Of a stretch of DNA of 64,000 nucleotides, positions 24,144-34,649 are shown piece by piece. Position numbers and translations under genes: made by a program. Origin of the DNA: Brachyspira suanatina (lineage in GTDB: Bacteria; Spirochaetota; Brachyspiria; Brachyspirales; Brachyspiraceae); the NCBI RefSeq assembly GCF_001049755.1, contig NZ_CVLB01000001.1, positions 248,001 through 312,000 of the forward strand, in the 5' to 3' direction. Under the pieces are notes generated by a model. It searched no databases. It was given only the letters and a program-made list of their open reading frames with translations, and had not been told where the DNA came from. Position 1 is the first letter of the stretch. Each line of letters opens with the position of its first letter.

Positions 24144-24328
24144 TATATTTTGTATAGAAAAATTTACAGTTTTTATATGCAAATTATAAAACTATATAAA
24201 AATATTATGAAATATACTACATTTGATACATAAAATATTTGTAATTAACTATTGTAAATATTTATATTTAGTTTAATATTAACGTATAGAATAACTTCAA
24301 TAAAATTTTGAAATGGAGTTTGATTATT

Positions 24329-24664
24329 ATGGAAGTAAATATTAAAGAGTTAGATAACAACACTGTAATATTGAAATTAGATGGAGATATTGATGTTTAT
24401 ACCTCATCTGATTTAAAAGATTCTATTTTTTCCCAAATAGAACTTGGTGCAAAAAAAATAATAGTAGATATGGAAGATGTTTATTACATAGACAGTAGCG
24501 GAATAGGGGTATTTATTTCAGCACTTGGTACATTTAAGAAGGTAAATGGTAAAATATGTTTTGTTAAAGTTACAGATCCAGTTAAAAAGGTGTTTGAACT
24601 TACTAAAATTAATAGTTTTTTCCCTGTATTTACAACTGAAACTGAGGCTTTAGCTAATTTTTAA
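24329..24664 (+). CDS. STAS-domain anti-sigma-factor antagonist
   Basis: 111 residues from the ATG at 24329 with GGAG 10 bases upstream; the TTG at 24308 in the same frame would overlap it. Single STAS domain like SpoIIAA: LDGDIDVYTSSDLKD, KKIIVDMEDVYYIDSSGIGV, and VFELTKINSFFPVF. By alignment to SpoIIAA the phosphorylated serine is Ser56 (first Ser of DSSG). Such proteins release a sigma factor or act in phospho-switch relays when dephosphorylated by a PP2C phosphatase. No kinase or sigma gene is adjacent. It has its own short unit upstream of atpB. Confidence 0.88.
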   Translation: MEVNIKELDNNTVILKLDGDIDVYTSSDLKDSIFSQIELGAKKIIVDMEDVYYIDSSGIGVFISALGTFKKVNGKICFVKVTDPVKKVFELTKINSFFPVFTTETEALANF

Positions 24665-24821: not shown

Positions 24822-25733
24822 ATGGTTAAAGAATTATTTTTGCTTAGGAAAGTTTTCATATTAACTTTAGTATTAAGCTGTGTATTTTCTGCTAATATTC
24901 TTTACGGTGCTGAAACTATTAATGATTATATAATGGAAGAAATAACTGATAATACAGAGCATCCATTCTATACAATCCCTATAAAATTTGGAAAATACAT
25001 TGATTTTGATTTTAAGATAACAAAGCATATAATATTAGTGACTTTAGCAGGTGTTTTATCTGTATGCAGTATGAAATACTTGGCTCATAAACTTAAACGT
25101 CCTTTAAATAGACCTACATATTTACAAAGTATATTGGAAGGTTTAATAGACTATATGAATAAAGATGTTATCGGTGCCACTTTAGGAGAAGAGGGTAAAA
25201 AATATGTGCCTTTTTGTCTTACGGTATTTTTATTTGTATTATTTTCAAACATATTAGGACTTATACCTGCATCTATCAAATTTCCTACAGAAGATGGAAA
25301 TCATTCTTATATAGCAGGCGGACTTGGTGCCAATATAGGATTTACTGCTGCTATAGCAGTGGTTGTATTTATAGTTTATGTTATTGCTGGAATAAGAAAA
25401 AAGGGCATAATAAAATACTGGACTGGTTTGGTTCCTAAAGGTCTTCCTATACCATTAATACCTATAATATGGGTATTAGAGTTTATTACATTATTCAACA
25501 GAGCTTTTGCTCTTGCGATTCGTTTGTTTGCAAACATAACAGGCGGACATATAATGATGATAGTCATACCATATTTGATAGTTATGTCTGGTACATTATT
25601 GGTTTCCCCATTTGCGGTATTATTCTTAGGATTTATATATGTACTTGAAATGTTTGTAGCGGTTTTACAGGCTTATATATTCTCATTATTATCAGCAGTT
25701 TATATTGGAATTGCTATTAGTGATGAGCATTAA
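24822..25733 (+). CDS. atpB: ATP synthase F0 subunit a
   Basis: Membrane subunit forming the proton half-channels. 303 residues from the ATG at 24822 (an in-frame TTG at 24813 is less likely). The N-terminus looks like a signal-anchor segment (RKVFILTLVLSCVFSANILYG), followed by a periplasmic stretch and 5-6 helices. The essential Arg is in FALAIRLFANITGGHIMM, and Gln/Glu-bearing helices (VLEMFVAVLQAYIFSLLSAV) match the family. First gene of the atpBEFHHA-GT-G cluster; atpE follows after 36 bases. No atpI precedes it. Confidence 0.95.
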   Translation: MVKELFLLRKVFILTLVLSCVFSANILYGAETINDYIMEEITDNTEHPFYTIPIKFGKYIDFDFKITKHIILVTLAGVLSVCSMKYLAHKLKRPLNRPTYLQSILEGLIDYMNKDVIGATLGEEGKKYVPFCLTVFLFVLFSNILGLIPASIKFPTEDGNHSYIAGGLGANIGFTAAIAVVVFIVYVIAGIRKKGIIKYWTGLVPKGLPIPLIPIIWVLEFITLFNRAFALAIRLFANITGGHIMMIVIPYLIVMSGTLLVSPFAVLFLGFIYVLEMFVAVLQAYIFSLLSAVYIGIAISDEH

Positions 25734-25766: not shown

Positions 25767-25991
<225 letters not shown>

Positions 25992-26021: not shown

Positions 26022-26525
26022 ATGGCACTTTTAAAAATAGATCCTGGTATTATAATTTGGACTTGGATCACATTTTTACTAGTTCTTGCTATATTAGGTG
26101 CTTCTACTTGGAAAATAATTTTGAAGGGTTTGAATGCTCGCGCTGATAAGATACAAGAAGATTTAGAAGAAGCTGAAAAAACTAGAGAAAATGCTAAAAA
26201 ATCTTTAGCAGCATATAGAGAGCAAATTGATAATGCTAAAGCTGAAGCCAGTGCTATCATAGAAAATGCTAGAGTTGAGGCTAATAGGATTAGAGATAAA
26301 ATTATTAATAATGCTAGAGAGGAAGCAGAACTTAATAAAAACAAAATTATGTCTGAAATAGACAGATCTAAAGAAGAGGCTATGAATAGTGTAAAAAAAC
26401 AGGCACTTGATATTGCTGTTGTTATGGCGGAAACTATTCTTAAAAGAAATGTTAATAAAGAAGATAATCAGGCTTTGATTAATGAATTTATTAATAATGC
26501 TAACAAAGAAAACAATCAGAAATGA
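26022..26525 (+). CDS. atpF: ATP synthase F0 subunit b
   Basis: Peripheral-stalk subunit. 167 residues: one N-terminal membrane helix (IIIWTWITFLLVLAILGAST), then a long charged helix (DKIQEDLEEAEKTRENAKKS through VKKQALDIAVVMAETILKRN) that dimerises and binds delta. GGAGG lies upstream of the ATG. Only one b gene is present, so the stalk is the homodimeric type unless another b lies elsewhere. Confidence 0.94.
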   Translation: MALLKIDPGIIIWTWITFLLVLAILGASTWKIILKGLNARADKIQEDLEEAEKTRENAKKSLAAYREQIDNAKAEASAIIENARVEANRIRDKIINNAREEAELNKNKIMSEIDRSKEEAMNSVKKQALDIAVVMAETILKRNVNKEDNQALINEFINNANKENNQK

Positions 26526-26559: not shown

Positions 26560-27108
26560 ATGAAAGAAAATGATAAATTACAGATACTGAAACCTACAGC
26601 TAGTGCTATATTTGATATAGCCAGAGAGCTTGGAATGATAAAAGAAATATATAATGAACTTTTAGAATGTTCAAAATTATTTCAGGATATTGATATAAAA
26701 AAATATTTTTTTGATAAATCAATTTCAAAGAAAGATAAAAAAGAATTAATAGATAAAAGATTAAAACCAATACTTTCTAAAGAAACTTATGCTTTTGTAT
26801 CTATATTAACAGAACATGACAGTATAGATGTACTGCCTGATATTGCAGCTTTGTATAAAGAGATAGCAGATGATTATAGTAATATAGTTAGAGTTCGCAT
26901 TATTACAGCAAGCACTATTGATGATAAGACAGTAGAAGATATAATTCAAACTGTTAGATGTTTTTCTAATAATGAGATATCTTATGAGACTGTAGTTGAT
27001 GAAAATATTATAGGCGGAATAATAGTATATATTGGCTCTGTTGTTTATGATTATAGTATAAAAAAACAAATAGATTTATTGCAAAGTAAATTTACCTATG
27101 GTAATTAA
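26560..27108 (+). CDS. atpH: ATP synthase F1 subunit delta, first of two
   Basis: Links the peripheral stalk to the alpha3beta3 head. 182 residues, family length. The N-terminal helical domain begins [17 protein letters not shown], and the C-terminal domain has the conserved [20 protein letters not shown] followed by [13 protein letters not shown]. It lies 34 bases after atpF. A second delta-like gene follows immediately, which is unusual; this copy has the standard length and position and the usual N-terminal domain, so it is the better candidate for the structural subunit. Confidence 0.88.
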
Positions 27109-27134
27109 TTAATAAACATTATAGGAGTTATAAT

Positions 27135-27776
27135 ATGGATTCTATTGCTGAAAATATTTTAAGTGATCTCAAGAAGGAAGTACTTAAAGAGGTTACAAAA
27201 GAAAAGGCAAGTAGATTTAGCCGTATTGTAAAAAATGAATCTAGTGCCAAGAACTATGCTAAGGCTATGTTTGATATTGCTTCAGATATGGGTAAAATTG
27301 AAGTAATTAAAAGTGATTTAAATGTTGTATATTCATCTTTGCTTGTTGATAATGATATATATGATTTTTTTAAATCTAGTTTCATAGACGGACATTTGAG
27401 AATGCGTATATTAAAAAAAATATATGCAGATAAGATTTTAGAAGAAACATTTAATCTTATCGCTATCTTGATAGAAAGAGATATGATTAATATTTTATTT
27501 GCAGTAATAGTAGAATATGAAAACTTATGCAATGAATATTATAATATAATTATAGTTAAAATTACAACTGCATCAAATATGACAGATACAGAGGATATGA
27601 ATAAACTTAAAAATCATATTACAAATATGATATCAGATAAAGACATACATTTTACATTTAATATAGATGAAAATATAATAGGCGGTGTTGTAATAGAGAT
27701 AGAAGATGTTGTATATGATTATAGTGTAAGAAGACTGCTTGCAGAATTGAAATCTTCTATTTCTGAGAATAATTGA
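27135..27776 (+). CDS. Second ATP synthase delta-subunit paralogue
   Basis: 213 residues. An N-terminal extension of about 35 charged residues (MDSIAENILSDLKKEVLKEV and on) precedes a full delta/OSCP domain: AKNYAKAMFDIASDMGKIEV, a helical core, then IDENIIGGVVIEIEDVVYDY and SVRRLLAELKSSI. The C-terminal motif matches the preceding gene nearly word for word (DENIIGG, VVYDYS), while the rest is diverged, so the duplication is old. It lies 26 bases after the first copy and 27 before atpA. It might form hetero-stalks, bind a different partner, or replace the first copy. Both frames are intact. Confidence 0.85.
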   Translation: MDSIAENILSDLKKEVLKEVTKEKASRFSRIVKNESSAKNYAKAMFDIASDMGKIEVIKSDLNVVYSSLLVDNDIYDFFKSSFIDGHLRMRILKKIYADKILEETFNLIAILIERDMINILFAVIVEYENLCNEYYNIIIVKITTASNMTDTEDMNKLKNHITNMISDKDIHFTFNIDENIIGGVVIEIEDVVYDYSVRRLLAELKSSISENN

Positions 27777-27803: not shown

Positions 27804-29303
27804 ATGAATATAAAAGCTAGTGAAATTGCAGCGGTTCTTAAAGAAGAGATTAAGAATTATAAAGCTGATTTTACTCCGAATGAAGTAGGGGTTGTTGTAG
27901 AGGTTGGAGATGGTATAGCCAGAATCATCGGACTTCCGCATGTTATGGCTAATGAGATGATACTTTTTGAAAGCGGTGCTGTTGGTCTTGCTTTTAACTT
28001 GGAAGAAGAAACTATAGGTGCTATAGTTTTAGGTGATTATTACGGAATTAAAGAGGGAAGTAAAGTAAGCAGGCTTAAAAGAATATTAGAAGTACCTGTG
28101 GGAGAGGCATTACTTGGAAGAGTTGTTAATCCTTTGGGTGTACCTATAGATGGACATGGTGAAATAACTACTAATAAAAGGAGAGTTATAGAATTCCCTG
28201 CTCCTGGTATTGCTGACAGACAGGCAGTAAAGCAGCCTCTTCAGACAGGTATTAAAGCTATTGACTCTATGACTCCTATAGGAAGAGGTCAAAGACAGCT
28301 TATTATCGGAGACAGAGGTACAGGTAAAACTTCTATTGCTCTTGATGCTATAATCAATCAAAAAGGTACAGGGGTTGTATGTGTTTATGTAGCAATAGGC
28401 CAGAAAGCTTCTACAGTTGCCGGAGTTGTTGATACATTAAGACAGCATGGAGCATTAGAATATACTATAGTAGTTGCTGCAACTGCTGCTGATTCTGCTC
28501 CACTTCAATACATAGCTCCTTATGCCGGATGTGCTATGGCAGAATATTTTATGTATGAACAGAAAAAAGATACATTAATTATATATGATGACTTAACTAA
28601 GCAGGCTAATGCTTATAGACAAATATCATTGCTTTTAAGAAGGCCTCCTGGAAGGGAAGCTTTTCCTGGTGACGTTTTCTATTTGCATTCAAGACTTCTT
28701 GAAAGAGCTGCAAAACTTAGTGATGAATTAGGAGGCGGTTCTTTAACTGCACTTCCTATAATAGAAACTCAGGATAATGAGGTGTCTGCTTATATTCCTA
28801 CTAACGTTATTTCTATTACAGACGGACAGATATATTTGCTTACTAGTTTATTTATGAGCGGTGTTCGTCCGGCAATTGATGTAGGTATATCAGTTTCACG
28901 TGTAGGTGGTAATGCTCAGACTAAGGCTATGAAAAAGGTTGCCGGTACTTTAAGACTTGACCTTGCATCTTATAGATCTTTAGAGGCATTCTCTCAGCTT
29001 GGTATCGGACTTGATAAAGCTACTTTGGCACAATTAGACAGAGGTGCTAAAATGGTTGAATTATTAAAACAAAAACAATACAGTCCTATACCTTTTGAAG
29101 AACAGGTTATTGTTATATTTGCTGCTACTAAAGGATTTTTAGATAATATTGAAGTTGATAGGGTTCATGAATTTGAATGGAGATTACTTCAATATATGAG
29201 AGCAGATAAGCAGAATATACTTGATGATATTAGAGAGAAAAAAGATATAGAGGATATGGACGGACTTTATAAGATTATAGAAGAGTTCAAGGCTAAATTC
29301 TAA
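27804..29303 (+). CDS. atpA: ATP synthase F1 subunit alpha
   Basis: Non-catalytic nucleotide-binding subunit. 499 residues from the ATG at 27804 with GAGG 9 bases upstream. P-loop [11 protein letters not shown] (the family usually has GDRQTGKT), arginine finger in [18 protein letters not shown], and C-terminal [20 protein letters not shown] are present. The N-terminal beta-barrel region [18 protein letters not shown] is standard. It is followed 5 bases later by a glycosyltransferase gene rather than atpG. Confidence 0.97.
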
Positions 29304-29308
29304 AATAT

Positions 29309-30145
29309 ATGAGTAAAATTTGTTTTTTAATTGCTGCACATAAAAATCAAAATCAGTGTATGAGATTAATTAATCATCTTAAAAAAGATTTTGATATTTA
29401 TGTGCATATAGATAAGAAATGTAAATTACATATTGAAAGTTTTGATAATGTAAAAATTTACAAAGATATTAAAGTTTATCATGGCGGCGTGAGTCAAGTT
29501 GTTGCCACCTTATTTTTAATGAGAGAATCTTATAAAAATAATTATGATAGATATGTTTTTATAAGCGGTCAGGATGTTCCTTTAAAAACTAATAAAGAAA
29601 TTATTAAGTTTTTTTATGACAATAAAGACAAAGAATTTACTTCATTTGAAAATATAAAAGATAATGGTATATATGAGGAGATGTCATTTAGATTAAATTC
29701 TTATAATTTTGGTAAAATATATAGAAAATTATTAAATAAAAAAATTAGAGAATCTATATCTAATATACCATTTATAAAAAGAACTACACCTGATAATATA
29801 TATTATGGCTCATCTTGGTGGAATTTAACTAGCAACGCAATTGAATATATATTAGATTATGTGAAAAAAAATCCTGAATATTTAAAAAGATTTAATTATA
29901 CCTGGGGAAGTGATGAATTCTTTTTTCAATCTATATTATTAAATAGTGAATTTAAAGATAATTGTGTAAATGACTGTTTGAGATATATTATATGGTGTGG
30001 TGGAACACCTATAAATTTAAAAATGAAAGATTATGAAGAATTAAAAAATAATATTAAAGACAATTTATTCGCACGCAAATTTGATGAAAACATTGATAAT
30101 GATATAATAGATAAGTTATATGAAGATTTAGAAAATTCTAATTGA
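29309..30145 (+). CDS. Core-2/I-branching-type glycosyltransferase (GT14-like) inside the atp cluster
   Basis: 278 residues, no signal peptide. Matches the bacterial beta-1,6-N-acetylglucosaminyltransferase-like family: N-terminal KICFLIAAHKNQNQCMRLI, VYHGGVSQVVATLFLM, the YVFISGQDVPLKT motif, YYGSSWWNLTSNAIEYI and TWGSDEFFFQSILLNS. It probably transfers a sugar from a nucleotide donor in the cytoplasm; acceptor unknown. It begins 5 bases after atpA without a strong Shine-Dalgarno and ends 14 bases before atpG, so it is likely carried on the atp message. Such a gene between alpha and gamma is unusual; it could be a passenger insertion or modify a cell-envelope glycan. Confidence 0.85.
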   Translation: MSKICFLIAAHKNQNQCMRLINHLKKDFDIYVHIDKKCKLHIESFDNVKIYKDIKVYHGGVSQVVATLFLMRESYKNNYDRYVFISGQDVPLKTNKEIIKFFYDNKDKEFTSFENIKDNGIYEEMSFRLNSYNFGKIYRKLLNKKIRESISNIPFIKRTTPDNIYYGSSWWNLTSNAIEYILDYVKKNPEYLKRFNYTWGSDEFFFQSILLNSEFKDNCVNDCLRYIIWCGGTPINLKMKDYEELKNNIKDNLFARKFDENIDNDIIDKLYEDLENSN

Positions 30146-30159
30146 TTTGGAGTTTTATT

Positions 30160-31038
30160 ATGGCAGAGAAACTTAATGTATTGAAAGCTAGAATTAAAGC
30201 TGTATCAAGTACACATAAAATAACCAAAACTATGGATATGATAGCCCGTTCAAGAACAGCTAAAATTCTAACAGTAGAACAAGGTATGCGTCCTTTCACT
30301 CAGAAATTGAACAGAATAGTTGAGGATCTTTCACATTCTGATATGGATCATGTGCATCCTTTGCTTGCTCCAAAAAAGAAAATAAAAAACATAATACTTT
30401 TTGTTGTAACTTCTTCAAGAGGATTATGCGGTTCTTATAATACAAAGATTTTTGATGAGGCTATGGAGAGAATCAGACATCATCATAGACATGGAAGAGA
30501 GGTTCAGCTTCATGTACTAGGAAAGAAAGGTGAAGTTTATTTTGAAAAGCAGGGCATACCGATAGCACGTAAATATCCTCGTATAGATGAAGAATCTACT
30601 TTTGATGATTGTGCTACTGTAGTTCAGCGTTTCATGCATGAATATGCAGTTGATAATGCTTCTAGGGTAGAGGTTATATATACAAGATATTATACAAGGG
30701 TGGTACATATACCTAAAATAAAAAGTTTAATTCCTATGATTCCTGATGAAGAGGATATTGAGGGACATAAAATAAAGAAAAAATTAGAGTATGTTATTGA
30801 GCCTAATGTAGATGACGTACTTAAGGAAATTGTTCCCATGGCTATTAAAACATATTTCTATTTTATGCTTACAAGTTCTTTTTTATCAGAAAATGCTGAA
30901 AGAGCTATTGCTATGAGAAATGCTACTGACAATGCTGAAAGATTATTAACAGATCTTAAAAATAAAGCTAACAGAGCCAGACAGGAACATATTACTAATG
31001 AGCTTCTTGATATTATAGGCGGTTCTGAAGCTATATAA
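30160..31038 (+). CDS. atpG: ATP synthase F1 subunit gamma
   Basis: Central rotor shaft. 292 residues from the ATG at 30160 with TTGGAG upstream; the in-frame TTG at 30142 overlaps the glycosyltransferase stop. N-terminal LKARIKAVSSTHKITKTMDM, the conserved SSRGLCGSYNTKIF motif and the C-terminal helix ERAIAMRNATDNAERLLTDL are typical. It is the last gene of the cluster: a terminator follows within 25 bases, and atpD and atpC are absent. Confidence 0.95.
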   Translation: MAEKLNVLKARIKAVSSTHKITKTMDMIARSRTAKILTVEQGMRPFTQKLNRIVEDLSHSDMDHVHPLLAPKKKIKNIILFVVTSSRGLCGSYNTKIFDEAMERIRHHHRHGREVQLHVLGKKGEVYFEKQGIPIARKYPRIDEESTFDDCATVVQRFMHEYAVDNASRVEVIYTRYYTRVVHIPKIKSLIPMIPDEEDIEGHKIKKKLEYVIEPNVDDVLKEIVPMAIKTYFYFMLTSSFLSENAERAIAMRNATDNAERLLTDLKNKANRARQEHITNELLDIIGGSEAI

Positions 31039-31872: not shown

Positions 31873-31904
31873 ACTCAAAATTATTAATTACTATGTGGTG
31901 GTAT

Positions 31905-32648
31905 ATGAAAAAATTGTTATTGATTTCTTTTGTTTTAATGATTACTTTTATTGTTTCCTGTGGTAAAAAAGAAGAGGCTAATGTAAGTATAAGTAATAAT
32001 GCAGTTTATGTGAGTTCTCCAGAAAATGTGTATAATAAAACCTATACTAATGTTGTAAAGATTCAGGGTAAATTTGTTAATATGAACTCTGCTTTTTCTT
32101 ATGCTGACAGAGAAGAAGGAGAATACAGCGAAGACTATGATATATTTGAGGCTATAGAAAATCATAGTTTAAAGAGAGTAATGGAATTAATAGAAGAAGG
32201 TGAAGATATTAATCAAAATGATAGAGACTTCATCTTATATAGTGAGTTTATGGAGGATAATTACCTTATAGAAGGTAGTACTCCTTTGATATTTGCAATA
32301 TTTTATAGAGATTTGGGTATAATGAAATATTTACTTGATAATGGTGCTGATCCTTATATTAAAGATGATAAAGGATTGAATTCTTTTTTATGGGCTTGCT
32401 GTGTTGGAAATGTTGACGTAATAAAAATGCTTGTAGAGTTTGATTCTGATTTAGTTGATTCTAAAGATAGATTTGATGCAAATGGACTTCATTTAGCCTC
32501 TATGTTTGGTAATGTAGAAGTATTTGAATATTTAGTAAATGATTTAGGTATTGATATAAATAGTACAGATAGAGATGGTTACAGCGTTTTATATTATGCT
32601 GAAAAAGATGAGGCAATAGAAAAACTAAAAGAGCTTGGTGCTAAATAA
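31905..32648 (+). CDS. Ankyrin-repeat lipoprotein, tandem copy 1
   Basis: 247 residues from the ATG at 31905, preceded by GTGGTGG; the ATG at 31893 lies inside that ribosome-binding site. Lipoprotein signal MKKLLLISFVLMITFIVSC with lipobox IVSC, then GKKEE. A spacer with a conserved YNKTYTNVVKIQGKF segment is followed by about four ankyrin units (DIFEAIENHSLKRVMELIEE; STPLIFAIFYRDLGIMKYLL; SFLWACCVGNVDVIKMLVE; GLHLASMFGNVEVFEYLVND) and a capping unit. Attached by lipid to a membrane, it would present a protein-binding surface in the periplasm or outside the cell. Closely similar to the next two genes. Confidence 0.88.
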   Translation: MKKLLLISFVLMITFIVSCGKKEEANVSISNNAVYVSSPENVYNKTYTNVVKIQGKFVNMNSAFSYADREEGEYSEDYDIFEAIENHSLKRVMELIEEGEDINQNDRDFILYSEFMEDNYLIEGSTPLIFAIFYRDLGIMKYLLDNGADPYIKDDKGLNSFLWACCVGNVDVIKMLVEFDSDLVDSKDRFDANGLHLASMFGNVEVFEYLVNDLGIDINSTDRDGYSVLYYAEKDEAIEKLKELGAK

Positions 32649-32715
32649 TATAAATTGTGTAATACATTAATATCTTTTAAATATGAATAAACTATAAAAT
32701 TATTTGTTTTTATAG

Positions 32716-32721
32716 TATAAT
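32716..32721 (+). promoter_or_regulatory. -10 box of ankyrin lipoprotein gene 2
   Basis: TATAAT in the duplicated block TATAGTATAATACTC, 26 bases before the ATG at 32742, same distance and surroundings as in copy 1. Confidence 0.55.
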
Positions 32722-32741
32722 ACTCGAAATTATTAATTACT

Positions 32742-33494
32742 ATGTGGTGGTATATAAAAAAATTGTTATTAATTTCTTTTATTTTAATGATTACTTTTAT
32801 TGTTTCCTGCTGTAAAAAAGAAGATAATAGTATAAATAATAATTCTATGTATGTAAGTGATTCAAATAATATATATCATAAAACCTACACTAATGTTGTA
32901 AAGATTCAAGGTAAATTTGTTAATATAAATCCTGCTTTTTATTACGGCAATAGAAAAGAAGGAGAATATAGCGAGGAGTATGATATATTTGAGGCTATAA
33001 AAAATCATAGTTTAAAAAGAGTAATGGAATTAATAGAAGATGGTGAAGATATTAATCAAAATGATAGAGACTTCATCATACATAGTGAGTTTATGGATGC
33101 TAATTACTTTATAGAAGGTAGTACTCCTTTAATATTTGCGGTATTTTATAGGGATTTGGGTGTAATGAAATATTTACTTGATAATGGTGCTGATCCTTAT
33201 ATTAAAGATGATAGCAGTAAGAATTCTTTTTTATGGGCTTGCGGTGTTGGAAATGTTGATGTAATAAAAATGCTTGTACAGGCAGATCATGATTTAGTTG
33301 ATACTCAAGATAAATTTGATTTAAATGGACTTCATATGGCTGCTTGGAATGATAATGTAGAAGTATTTGAATATTTAGTTAATGATTTGGGTATGGATAT
33401 AAACAGCACTGATGAGCACGGAAACGGAGTTTTATATTATGCCACTGAATATGCAACATTAGAGAAGTTAATAGAGCTAGGAGCTGAAGAGTAA
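32742..33494 (+). CDS. Ankyrin-repeat lipoprotein, tandem copy 2, start codon altered
   Basis: 250 residues if begun at the ATG at 32742 (MWWYIKKLLL). The codon matching the start of copy 1 is ATA here (32754-32756), so the well-placed GTGGTGG no longer precedes an ATG. Translation would have to use the upstream ATG (no Shine-Dalgarno), the ATA, or a TTG at 32763. The rest is intact: lipobox IVSC followed by CKKED, and the same four ankyrin units (VMELIEDGEDINQNDRDFII; STPLIFAVFYRDLGVMKYLL; FLWACGVGNVDVIKMLVQ; GLHMAAWNDNVEVFEYLVND). Mature protein is very like copy 1. Expression may be low. Confidence 0.78.
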   Translation: MWWYIKKLLLISFILMITFIVSCCKKEDNSINNNSMYVSDSNNIYHKTYTNVVKIQGKFVNINPAFYYGNRKEGEYSEEYDIFEAIKNHSLKRVMELIEDGEDINQNDRDFIIHSEFMDANYFIEGSTPLIFAVFYRDLGVMKYLLDNGADPYIKDDSSKNSFLWACGVGNVDVIKMLVQADHDLVDTQDKFDLNGLHMAAWNDNVEVFEYLVNDLGMDINSTDEHGNGVLYYATEYATLEKLIELGAEE

Positions 33495-33616
33495 TTTTAT
33501 AAAAATGATGCATTTAGCAGATAGAGTTATTTTCTAGACTTAATTAGCGAACAATTTTTATTAAAAATAAGATAAAAATTGTGAGTATTTCATAAATATA
33601 TTGAAGATAAATATAT

Positions 33617-33671
33617 AAAAAAATCGAGCGTCTAGCAATATTATTGCTAGACCCTTAAAGCAAGATTTTTT
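33617..33671. repeat. Palindromic intergenic repeat, copy B
   Basis: Outer arms of A's and T's around TC/GA, inner perfect stem CTAGCAAT / ATTGCTAG, with GAGCGT and CCCTTAAAGCAA as in copy A. It lies 122 bases after the copy-2 stop and may also terminate that transcript. Confidence 0.75.
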
Positions 33672-33755
33672 AATTATTAATAAATCAATTTTTATTAGCA
33701 ACAATATAAAAATTGTGAGTGTTTAAATAAATATATTTAATAAGATGAATATATT

Positions 33756-33810
33756 AAAAAATCGAGCGTCTAGCAAATTCATTTGCTAGAGCCTTAAAGC
33801 GAGATTTTTT
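33756..33810. repeat. Palindromic intergenic repeat, copy C
   Basis: Same plan as copy B with inner stem CTAGCAAA / TTTGCTAG: both arms have changed together relative to copies A and B, so pairing is kept. Part of the ~125-bp segment shared with the region before copy 1. Confidence 0.75.
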
Positions 33811-33842
33811 AATTATTTATAGAAAATAATTTGTTTTTATTG

Positions 33843-33848
33843 TATAAT
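33843..33848 (+). promoter_or_regulatory. -10 box of ankyrin lipoprotein gene 3
   Basis: TATAAT in TATTGTATAATACTT, 42 bases before the ATG at 33885; the surrounding ATTATTAATTACTAT block is shared with copies 1 and 2. Confidence 0.55.
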
Positions 33849-33884
33849 ACTTCACAAATTATTAATTACTATACGGTGGTGTTT

Positions 33885-34649
33885 ATGAAAAGTATAAAAA
33901 TCTCAAAAAGCATATTATTGGTTTCTTTATTATCAATTATTTTAATTGTGTCATGCGGTAAAAAAGAAGAGACTAGTGTAAGTATAAGTAATAATTCTGT
34001 GTATGTAAGTGATCCAAATAATATATATCATAAAACTTATACTAATGTTGTAAAGGTTCAGGGTAAATATGTTAGTATGAACGCTGCTTTTTCTTACGGC
34101 AATAGAAAAGAAGGAGAATACAGCGAGGAGTATGATATATTTGAGGCTATACAAAATCATAGCTTAAAGAGAGTACAGGAATTAATAGAAGAAGAAGGCG
34201 AAGATATAGATCAAACTTATTTCGGAGATAGTTTATATAGTGAATTTATGGATGATAGTTATGCAATAGACGGGGGCACTCCTTTAATATTTGCTGTATT
34301 TTATAGAGATTTGGGTATAATGAAATATTTGCTTGATAAAGGTGCTGATCCTTATATTAAAGATGATGACAGTTGGAATGCATTTTTATGGGCTTGCGGC
34401 ACAGGCAATGTTGATGTAATAAAAATGCTTGTACAGTCAGATTCTGATTTAGTTAATTCTAAAAATATGTATGATGCAAACGGACTTCATATGGCGGCTT
34501 TGAATGATAATGTAGAGGTGTTTGAGTATTTAGTTAATGATTTGGGTATTGATATAAACAGTACAGATGAGGATGGAGACGGAGTTTTATATTATGCCAA
34601 TGAAGATGCAGCATTAGAGAAGTTAAGAGAGCTAGGAGCTGAAGAGTAA
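33885..34649 (+). CDS. Ankyrin-repeat lipoprotein, tandem copy 3
   Basis: 254 residues from the ATG at 33885, preceded by GGTGGTG. The signal peptide differs from copies 1 and 2 (MKSIKISKSILLVSLLSIIL, lipobox IVSC), but the mature part is the same protein: GKKEE, YHKTYTNVVKVQGKYV, then four ankyrin units (RVQELIEEEGEDIDQTYFGD; TPLIFAVFYRDLGIMKYLLD; AFLWACGTGNVDVIKMLVQ; GLHMAALNDNVEVFEYLVND). The first loop is most divergent (a one-residue insertion and QTYFGDSLYSEF replacing QNDRDFILYSEF), suggesting selection for different binding. Confidence 0.88.
   Translation: MKSIKISKSILLVSLLSIILIVSCGKKEETSVSISNNSVYVSDPNNIYHKTYTNVVKVQGKYVSMNAAFSYGNRKEGEYSEEYDIFEAIQNHSLKRVQELIEEEGEDIDQTYFGDSLYSEFMDDSYAIDGGTPLIFAVFYRDLGIMKYLLDKGADPYIKDDDSWNAFLWACGTGNVDVIKMLVQSDSDLVNSKNMYDANGLHMAALNDNVEVFEYLVNDLGIDINSTDEDGDGVLYYANEDAALEKLRELGAEE

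Follow-up and report, generated by a model that had tools for sequence, protein, structure and literature searches.

Delta clamps the ATP synthase stator to the catalytic head, and known structures have, as a rule, one delta per enzyme. Two delta genes nevertheless lie side by side in the F1Fo operon of a Brachyspira genome, and the locus raises the question of where the second copy came from and what the two products do.

A tandem pair of delta genes in the ATP synthase locus

The stretch of DNA analyzed here (the window, 64,000 nucleotides) is part of a 3.26-Mb Brachyspira genome (G000), the genus being assigned from close matches to named records, which reach 97% identity in d2. Its F1Fo cluster lies on the plus strand in the order a-c-b-d1-d2-alpha-glycosyltransferase-gamma, where d1 and d2 denote the two delta genes. 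The genes atpB (subunit a, 24822 to 25733; PF00119, 176.7 bits for 24837 to 25730), atpE (subunit c, 25770 to 25991; PF00137), and atpF (subunit b, 26022 to 26525; PF00430) are followed by atpH1 (d1, 26560 to 27108), which encodes 182 amino acids without an N-terminal extension, and atpH2 (d2, 27135 to 27776), which encodes 213 amino acids with one. Next come atpA (subunit alpha, 27804 to 29303; TIGR00962, 791.7 bits), a gene within the operon for a Core-2/I-branching-type glycosyltransferase (29309 to 30145; PF02485, 80.5 bits), and atpG (subunit gamma, 30163 to 31038; TIGR01146, 234.6 bits). The a-c-b-d1-d2-alpha order recurs in named Brachyspira loci, with both deltas adjoining b and alpha in the F-type operon. 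Since atpF is the sole b gene found in the genome and there is one true atpD (beta), the next match scoring 182 bits against a cutoff of 463 bits, delta is the duplicated subunit.

The initial annotation of this locus had described two intact, full OSCP/delta genes that are strongly diverged, and both parts of that description are borne out. The two open reading frames start with ATG, contain zero internal stops, and have AGGA/AGGAG-like ribosome sites upstream. They match the OSCP/delta family over their full length, scoring 118.1 (d1) and 121.8 (d2) bits against Pfam OSCP (PF00213; cutoff, 22.3 bits) and 93.1 and 104.4 bits, respectively, against TIGR01145 (cutoff, 57.5 bits). The annotation had allowed that profile scoring might put the second copy outside the family; these scores put it inside. 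The proteins are 33% identical to each other (E, 2e-24), and a search of the G000 genome found no third OSCP gene. AlphaFold2 models of both have the OSCP fold, a helical N-domain and an alpha/beta C-domain (mean pLDDT, 86.9 for d1 and 79.5 for d2), and their leading PDB matches are ATP synthase delta/OSCP chains, such as 9o19_W (TM by query length, 0.79 for d1 and 0.71 for d2).

A nearly identical DENIIGG...VVYDYS motif had been singled out as common to the two copies. It is present in both, although it sits in the general OSCP C-domain signature, GG...D.S, whose second G, D, and S occur in 24/24 d1, 23/23 d2, and 32/32 single deltas; YDYS is family-wide and also appears in some unrelated deltas. 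Since the motif is hardly more alike between d1 and d2 of the same genome (64% identity) than across clades (61%), it was inherited rather than spread by recent gene conversion. Conversion is likewise rejected for the proteins as a whole, for which same-genome and cross-clade identities are equal (29.9% both).

Several other features of these loci were noted. The genes atpD (C1:1033941) and atpC (epsilon, C1:2236616) of G000 are remote from the main cluster and from each other. The glycosyltransferase gene between atpA and atpG is family-wide, sister genus g2 included, and in single Brachyspira it is missing (L074 and L108), doubled (L073 and L101), or split (L070/L106). In g2, a further gene is inserted between atpH and atpA (L063:6738-7388 and L064:7150-7824); its product starts with a YSAGKDS motif and by eye resembles PP-loop ATPases. 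Directly upstream of atpB is a small gene (24308 to 24664) whose product looks like a STAS-domain anti-sigma-factor antagonist by eye and which is kept there in most loci read. Downstream of atpG are three similar tandem lipoprotein-like genes (31893 to 34649) with ankyrin-like repeats, again judged by eye, and copies lie at the same place in other genomes. A gene adjoining the epsilon gene (L081:1996-3243) encodes a long tandem-repeat protein with units like LPEDLDNDKVSADIDNLD.

Distribution and ancestry of the pair

Both copies are present in 24 of 26 Brachyspira genomes, although contig ends divide d1 in one of them (G024). In the 23 genomes with complete assemblies of the two genes, each gene is intact, so the prospect that one copy would prove to be a pseudogene in related strains did not materialize; with dN/dS values of ~0.16 to 0.18 for the two genes, we reject the pseudogene explanation. 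Of the remaining two genomes, G020 has d1 only, and G022 (86% complete) has no delta and also no proper b match. Across Spirochaetota, 131 of 390 genomes had a delta match, and all 106 of these outside Brachyspira had exactly one. Sister genera g2 and g3 each have a single delta, which is of the d2 type and carries the extension; the single-copy status of g2, g3, and G020 rests on metagenome-assembled genomes. In another large group (271 genomes, 190 with a match), the 136 genomes with a match at E ≤ 1e-27 had one each at that level, as counted by eye among the matches listed. Within the groups searched, the tandem pair is thus a mark of Brachyspira.

The G020 locus is a contiguous b-d1-alpha, d2 is nowhere in the assembly, and every other subunit (a, c, b, alpha, gamma, beta, and epsilon) has its gene there. 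Given that g2 and g3 have the d2 type only and that G020 has d1 only beside a complete F1Fo gene set, each delta type is apparently able to serve alone.

A tree of spirochete deltas, as the initial annotation had proposed to build, was made from 79 rows (24 d1 and 23 d2) after G024, one identical row, and two rows shorter than 165 amino acids were dropped. It separated d1 and d2 into one clade each (support, 100/100 and 100/96, respectively), nested with the single deltas of g2 and g3. The tree shows that the duplication is older than the Brachyspira radiation: atpH was duplicated in tandem long ago, on the genus stem or somewhat earlier. Its placement relative to the split from g2 is balanced: a d1-plus-d2 clade has support of 49/10, whereas grouping d2 with g2 gives a p-AU of 0.52, and grouping d2 with g2 and g3 gives 0.44. 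A distant horizontal origin of d1 is not favored, as d1 falls inside the Brachyspiraceae (99/93 with g3, 92/87 with g2 and d2), albeit on a long branch that drew a program warning.

The stem leading to d1 is long, at 1.64 changes per column against 0.63 for d2, and d2 is 38% and 31% identical to the single deltas of g2 and g3, respectively. These comparisons show d2 to be the copy that, by its sequence, keeps the ancestral form and d1 to be the derived one, with an altered surface that presumably faces alpha. The initial annotation had located the novelty in the second copy, and here it has to be reversed. The charged N-terminal extension that it reported on that copy does exist; it is not an invention of that copy, since the single deltas of both sister genera have one.

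By b, c, and alpha, G020 is the earliest branch of the genus (support, 84), while its d1 alone groups with those of G001 and G003 on a long branch (89/81). The simplest reading is that d2 was lost in G020. No special acceleration of d1 after this loss was detected in G020 beyond that of b (tip over rest of tree, 0.31 for d1, 0.51 for b, and 0.28 for alpha).

Both copies are under purifying selection. Median pairwise dN/dS among 16 genomes, excluding pairs with dS outside 0.05 to 1.2, was 0.16 for d1 (119 of 120 pairs used) and 0.176 for d2 (110), compared to 0.039 for c (114), 0.057 for b (120), and 0.054 for alpha (120); constraint per copy is weaker but far from absent. Tree lengths across 22 Brachyspira genomes were 2.45 (d1), 2.17 (d2), 0.76 (b), and 0.49 (alpha), versus 4.89 (delta), 3.04 (b), and 1.66 (alpha) across 19 chosen single-delta genomes. 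Relative to b, d1 and d2 thus evolve at about twice the rate of a single delta; the g2 pair, with its single delta, gives nearly the same value for delta (0.72) as for b (0.75). Redundancy alone could also produce this ~2-fold difference.

Residues and an N-terminal extension that distinguish the copies

Two N-domain columns set d1 apart. At the position of E. coli delta Tyr11 in helix 1, 32/32 single deltas and 23/23 d2 have Tyr (d2 Tyr41, codon at 27255 to 27257), whereas 24/24 d1 have Thr or Ala (d1 Thr13, 26596 to 26598). At the position of Asn75 in helix 5, 27/32 single deltas and 23/23 d2 have Asn (d2 Asn107, 27453 to 27455), whereas 24/24 d1 have Ala, Ser, Thr, or Val (d1 Ala78, 26791 to 26793). 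The numbering was counted on the aligned E. coli delta sequence, and the Tyr/Asn pair is highly conserved in the single deltas compared, outside any formal definition of the OSCP/delta family. Published E. coli work reportedly maps F1 binding by delta to a surface on helices 1 and 5, with Tyr11 and Asn75 included. Other parts of the N-domain, and the C-domain as well, hold more d1-only departures; a few departures are d2 only, and many are shared by both copies. In G020, where d1 lacks both residues, the alpha N terminus is of the same kind as in other Brachyspira, which suggests that their loss need not weaken docking.

The extension of d2 spans approximately residues 1 to 37 (27135 to 27245), and its residues 1 to 20 resemble the N-terminal helix of alpha, in register from the Met. 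The first ~20 residues of d2-type proteins have the spacing of the alpha N terminus, with hydrophobic residues at positions 8, 12, and 16 and a Lys-like residue at 13. This pattern, which was composed after inspecting the sequences that it counts, occurs in 21/26 d2-type N termini, 0/32 single deltas outside the family, 0/24 d1, and 0/320 other N termini. With a profile built from 23 alpha N termini outside the family (effective training size, ~3), 7 of 10 d2-type N termini beat all 320 background N termini in register, the background being drawn from genomes of one family with homologues included. The other three (G015, G016, and G070) fell below that bar with a shifted register; with offsets allowed, their scores were reached by 8, 4, and 0 of the 320, respectively.

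Other tests gave less uniform results. Compared with shuffled extensions, pairwise local scores were weak in most Brachyspira (G000, 41/500; G012, 49/500; G003, 40/500; G019, 30/500; G001 and G015, 16/500) and stronger in G063 (0/500), G138 (5/500, with G063 alpha as the partner), and G070 (19/500), and in several Brachyspira the best pairwise match to alpha was out of register. Profiles from only three alpha N termini were mixed, one giving 0/320 for G138 and 5 to 57 of 320 for the other nine N termini; in another three-sequence profile test, the N-terminal background still held real alpha N termini. Cruder tests of alpha-likeness were weaker, above all in the crown Brachyspira clade. On the whole, there is good evidence that the d2-type N terminus resembles that of alpha. 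The resemblance may reflect homology, with the 5' end of atpA having been copied, or convergence. The extension is present in g2 and g3, where d1 is absent, so it did not evolve to serve d1.

How two deltas might serve one enzyme

The F1 crown has one delta seat in established structures. Given this one seat, together with one alpha gene and one b gene, d1 and d2 most likely compete for it. The reading that we prefer, at close to an even chance, is that they are two distinct, alternative stator subunits of one F1Fo enzyme, and we infer that both are incorporated into the same F1Fo, where they dock differently. Competition would produce two enzyme populations: in the d2 population, the stator head would be docked canonically via the Tyr, the Asn, and the alpha-like N-terminal helix, whereas the d1 population would hold the N-terminal helices of alpha differently. 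Both deltas probably come from one operon transcript, as the 26-base spacing between d1 and d2 suggests, and translation and assembly, not separate promoters, would then determine their ratio. The idea of alternative stalks or a neofunctionalized subunit, raised in the initial annotation, fits both the genus-wide retention of the pair and the contrast at the presumed alpha-binding face, which is altered in d1 and kept in d2.

The same annotation had also suggested an asymmetric stalk, and here G020, with d1 only, argues against an obligatory two-delta arrangement as well as against a d1 that works only outside the enzyme. Both deltas might still occupy one complex as an asymmetric cap, with d2 on the alpha crown and its N-terminal helix in the helix 1/5 groove of d1 (or with d1 on the second b C terminus). 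We regard this as unlikely: although the d2-type extension resembles the part of alpha that binds delta, the groove residues are changed in 24/24 d1, and the adjacent genes are kept together in 24 of 26 genomes, the extension predates d1 and occurs with one delta in g2 and g3, G020 has d1 without d2, the canonical crown offers one seat, and the AlphaFold2 model of d2 renders the extension as a low-confidence extended helix that is not docked. Less likely still is the specific form in which d2 on the crown offers its alpha-type helix to a remodeled d1 groove and G020 has reverted to a single delta. If true, this two-delta cap would give a rotary ATPase a stator head built asymmetrically from two different deltas.

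As probable as the asymmetric cap is a neofunctionalized d1, in which d2 is the working delta of most Brachyspira and d1 acts outside F1Fo or as an assembly or regulatory factor. Such a shift would suit the long d1 stem and the disappearance from d1 of a Tyr and an Asn still present in d2 and in almost every single delta. It is harder to reconcile with G020, where d1 is the sole delta beside a complete F1Fo gene set and shows no burst beyond that of b, and with the C-domain signature and OSCP fold that d1 retains. Slightly further down in probability is neutral redundancy or dosage, by which the copies are equivalent and are being slowly lost or matter only in amount. Weaker constraint on both copies than on a single delta and the loss of d2 in one lineage would be expected under redundancy, but both genes are kept in 24/26 genomes over a deep divergence (d1 sequences are down to 47% identical among themselves), and the differences at conserved sites are fixed lineage-wide (24/24 versus 23/23). 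It is very improbable that the second delta belongs to the cell's other rotary ATPase or to an additional F-type enzyme. G000 does encode a V/A-type ATPase (open reading frames of 587 and at least 415 amino acids resembling its A and B subunits), but it has a single true atpD, both deltas are inside the F-type operon, and V/A-type enzymes are not known to have a delta/OSCP subunit.

A genus whose two clamps have diverged, with one of them losing residues conserved in related deltas, offers a natural experiment on the requirements of the clamp. The Brachyspira pair also makes it testable whether the stator head of a rotary ATPase can be exchanged or doubled. The alpha-like helix on the ancestral-type delta likewise offers a testable idea, that of self-docking or delta-delta docking via the alpha-binding groove. 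Structural work on the F1Fo of these gut spirochetes must account for both deltas.

By profile, fold, and operon position, d1 and d2 are full-length members of the bacterial F-type delta family (AtpH). They differ from its other members in being two diverged tandem copies, in the absence from d1 of the Tyr found in 32/32 and the Asn found in 27/32 single deltas, and in the alpha-like extension of d2. The sister-genus deltas (G063, G070, and G138) share the d2-like sequence and the N-terminal extension, and g2 also has the same operon neighbors, including the glycosyltransferase, but each has one copy only. The duplicated b of photosynthetic and other bacteria, b and b', is a parallel in that a stator subunit was duplicated and diverged within one operon. 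It differs in that b occurs twice per complex according to a review (PMC6131620), which makes a heterodimer natural, whereas delta occurs once. The same review describes delta as joining alpha and b, and a second delta is not mentioned in passages from PMC6131620, PMC4511686, PMC4955376, PMC5415613, and PMC5664097, which came from a search of literature outside subscription journals. The pair is a genuine, genus-wide variant of the F-type ATP synthase, previously described nowhere in the literature found by that search. The mycobacterial b-delta fusion (PRK13428; PDB 7njk and others) is likewise a case in which one lineage has rebuilt the stator at its delta end, although it joins delta to b and involves no second delta. 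In Brachyspira, b is a separate gene, the d2 extension is short, and d2 scores 17.7 bits against PRK13428, below its cutoff of 328 bits.
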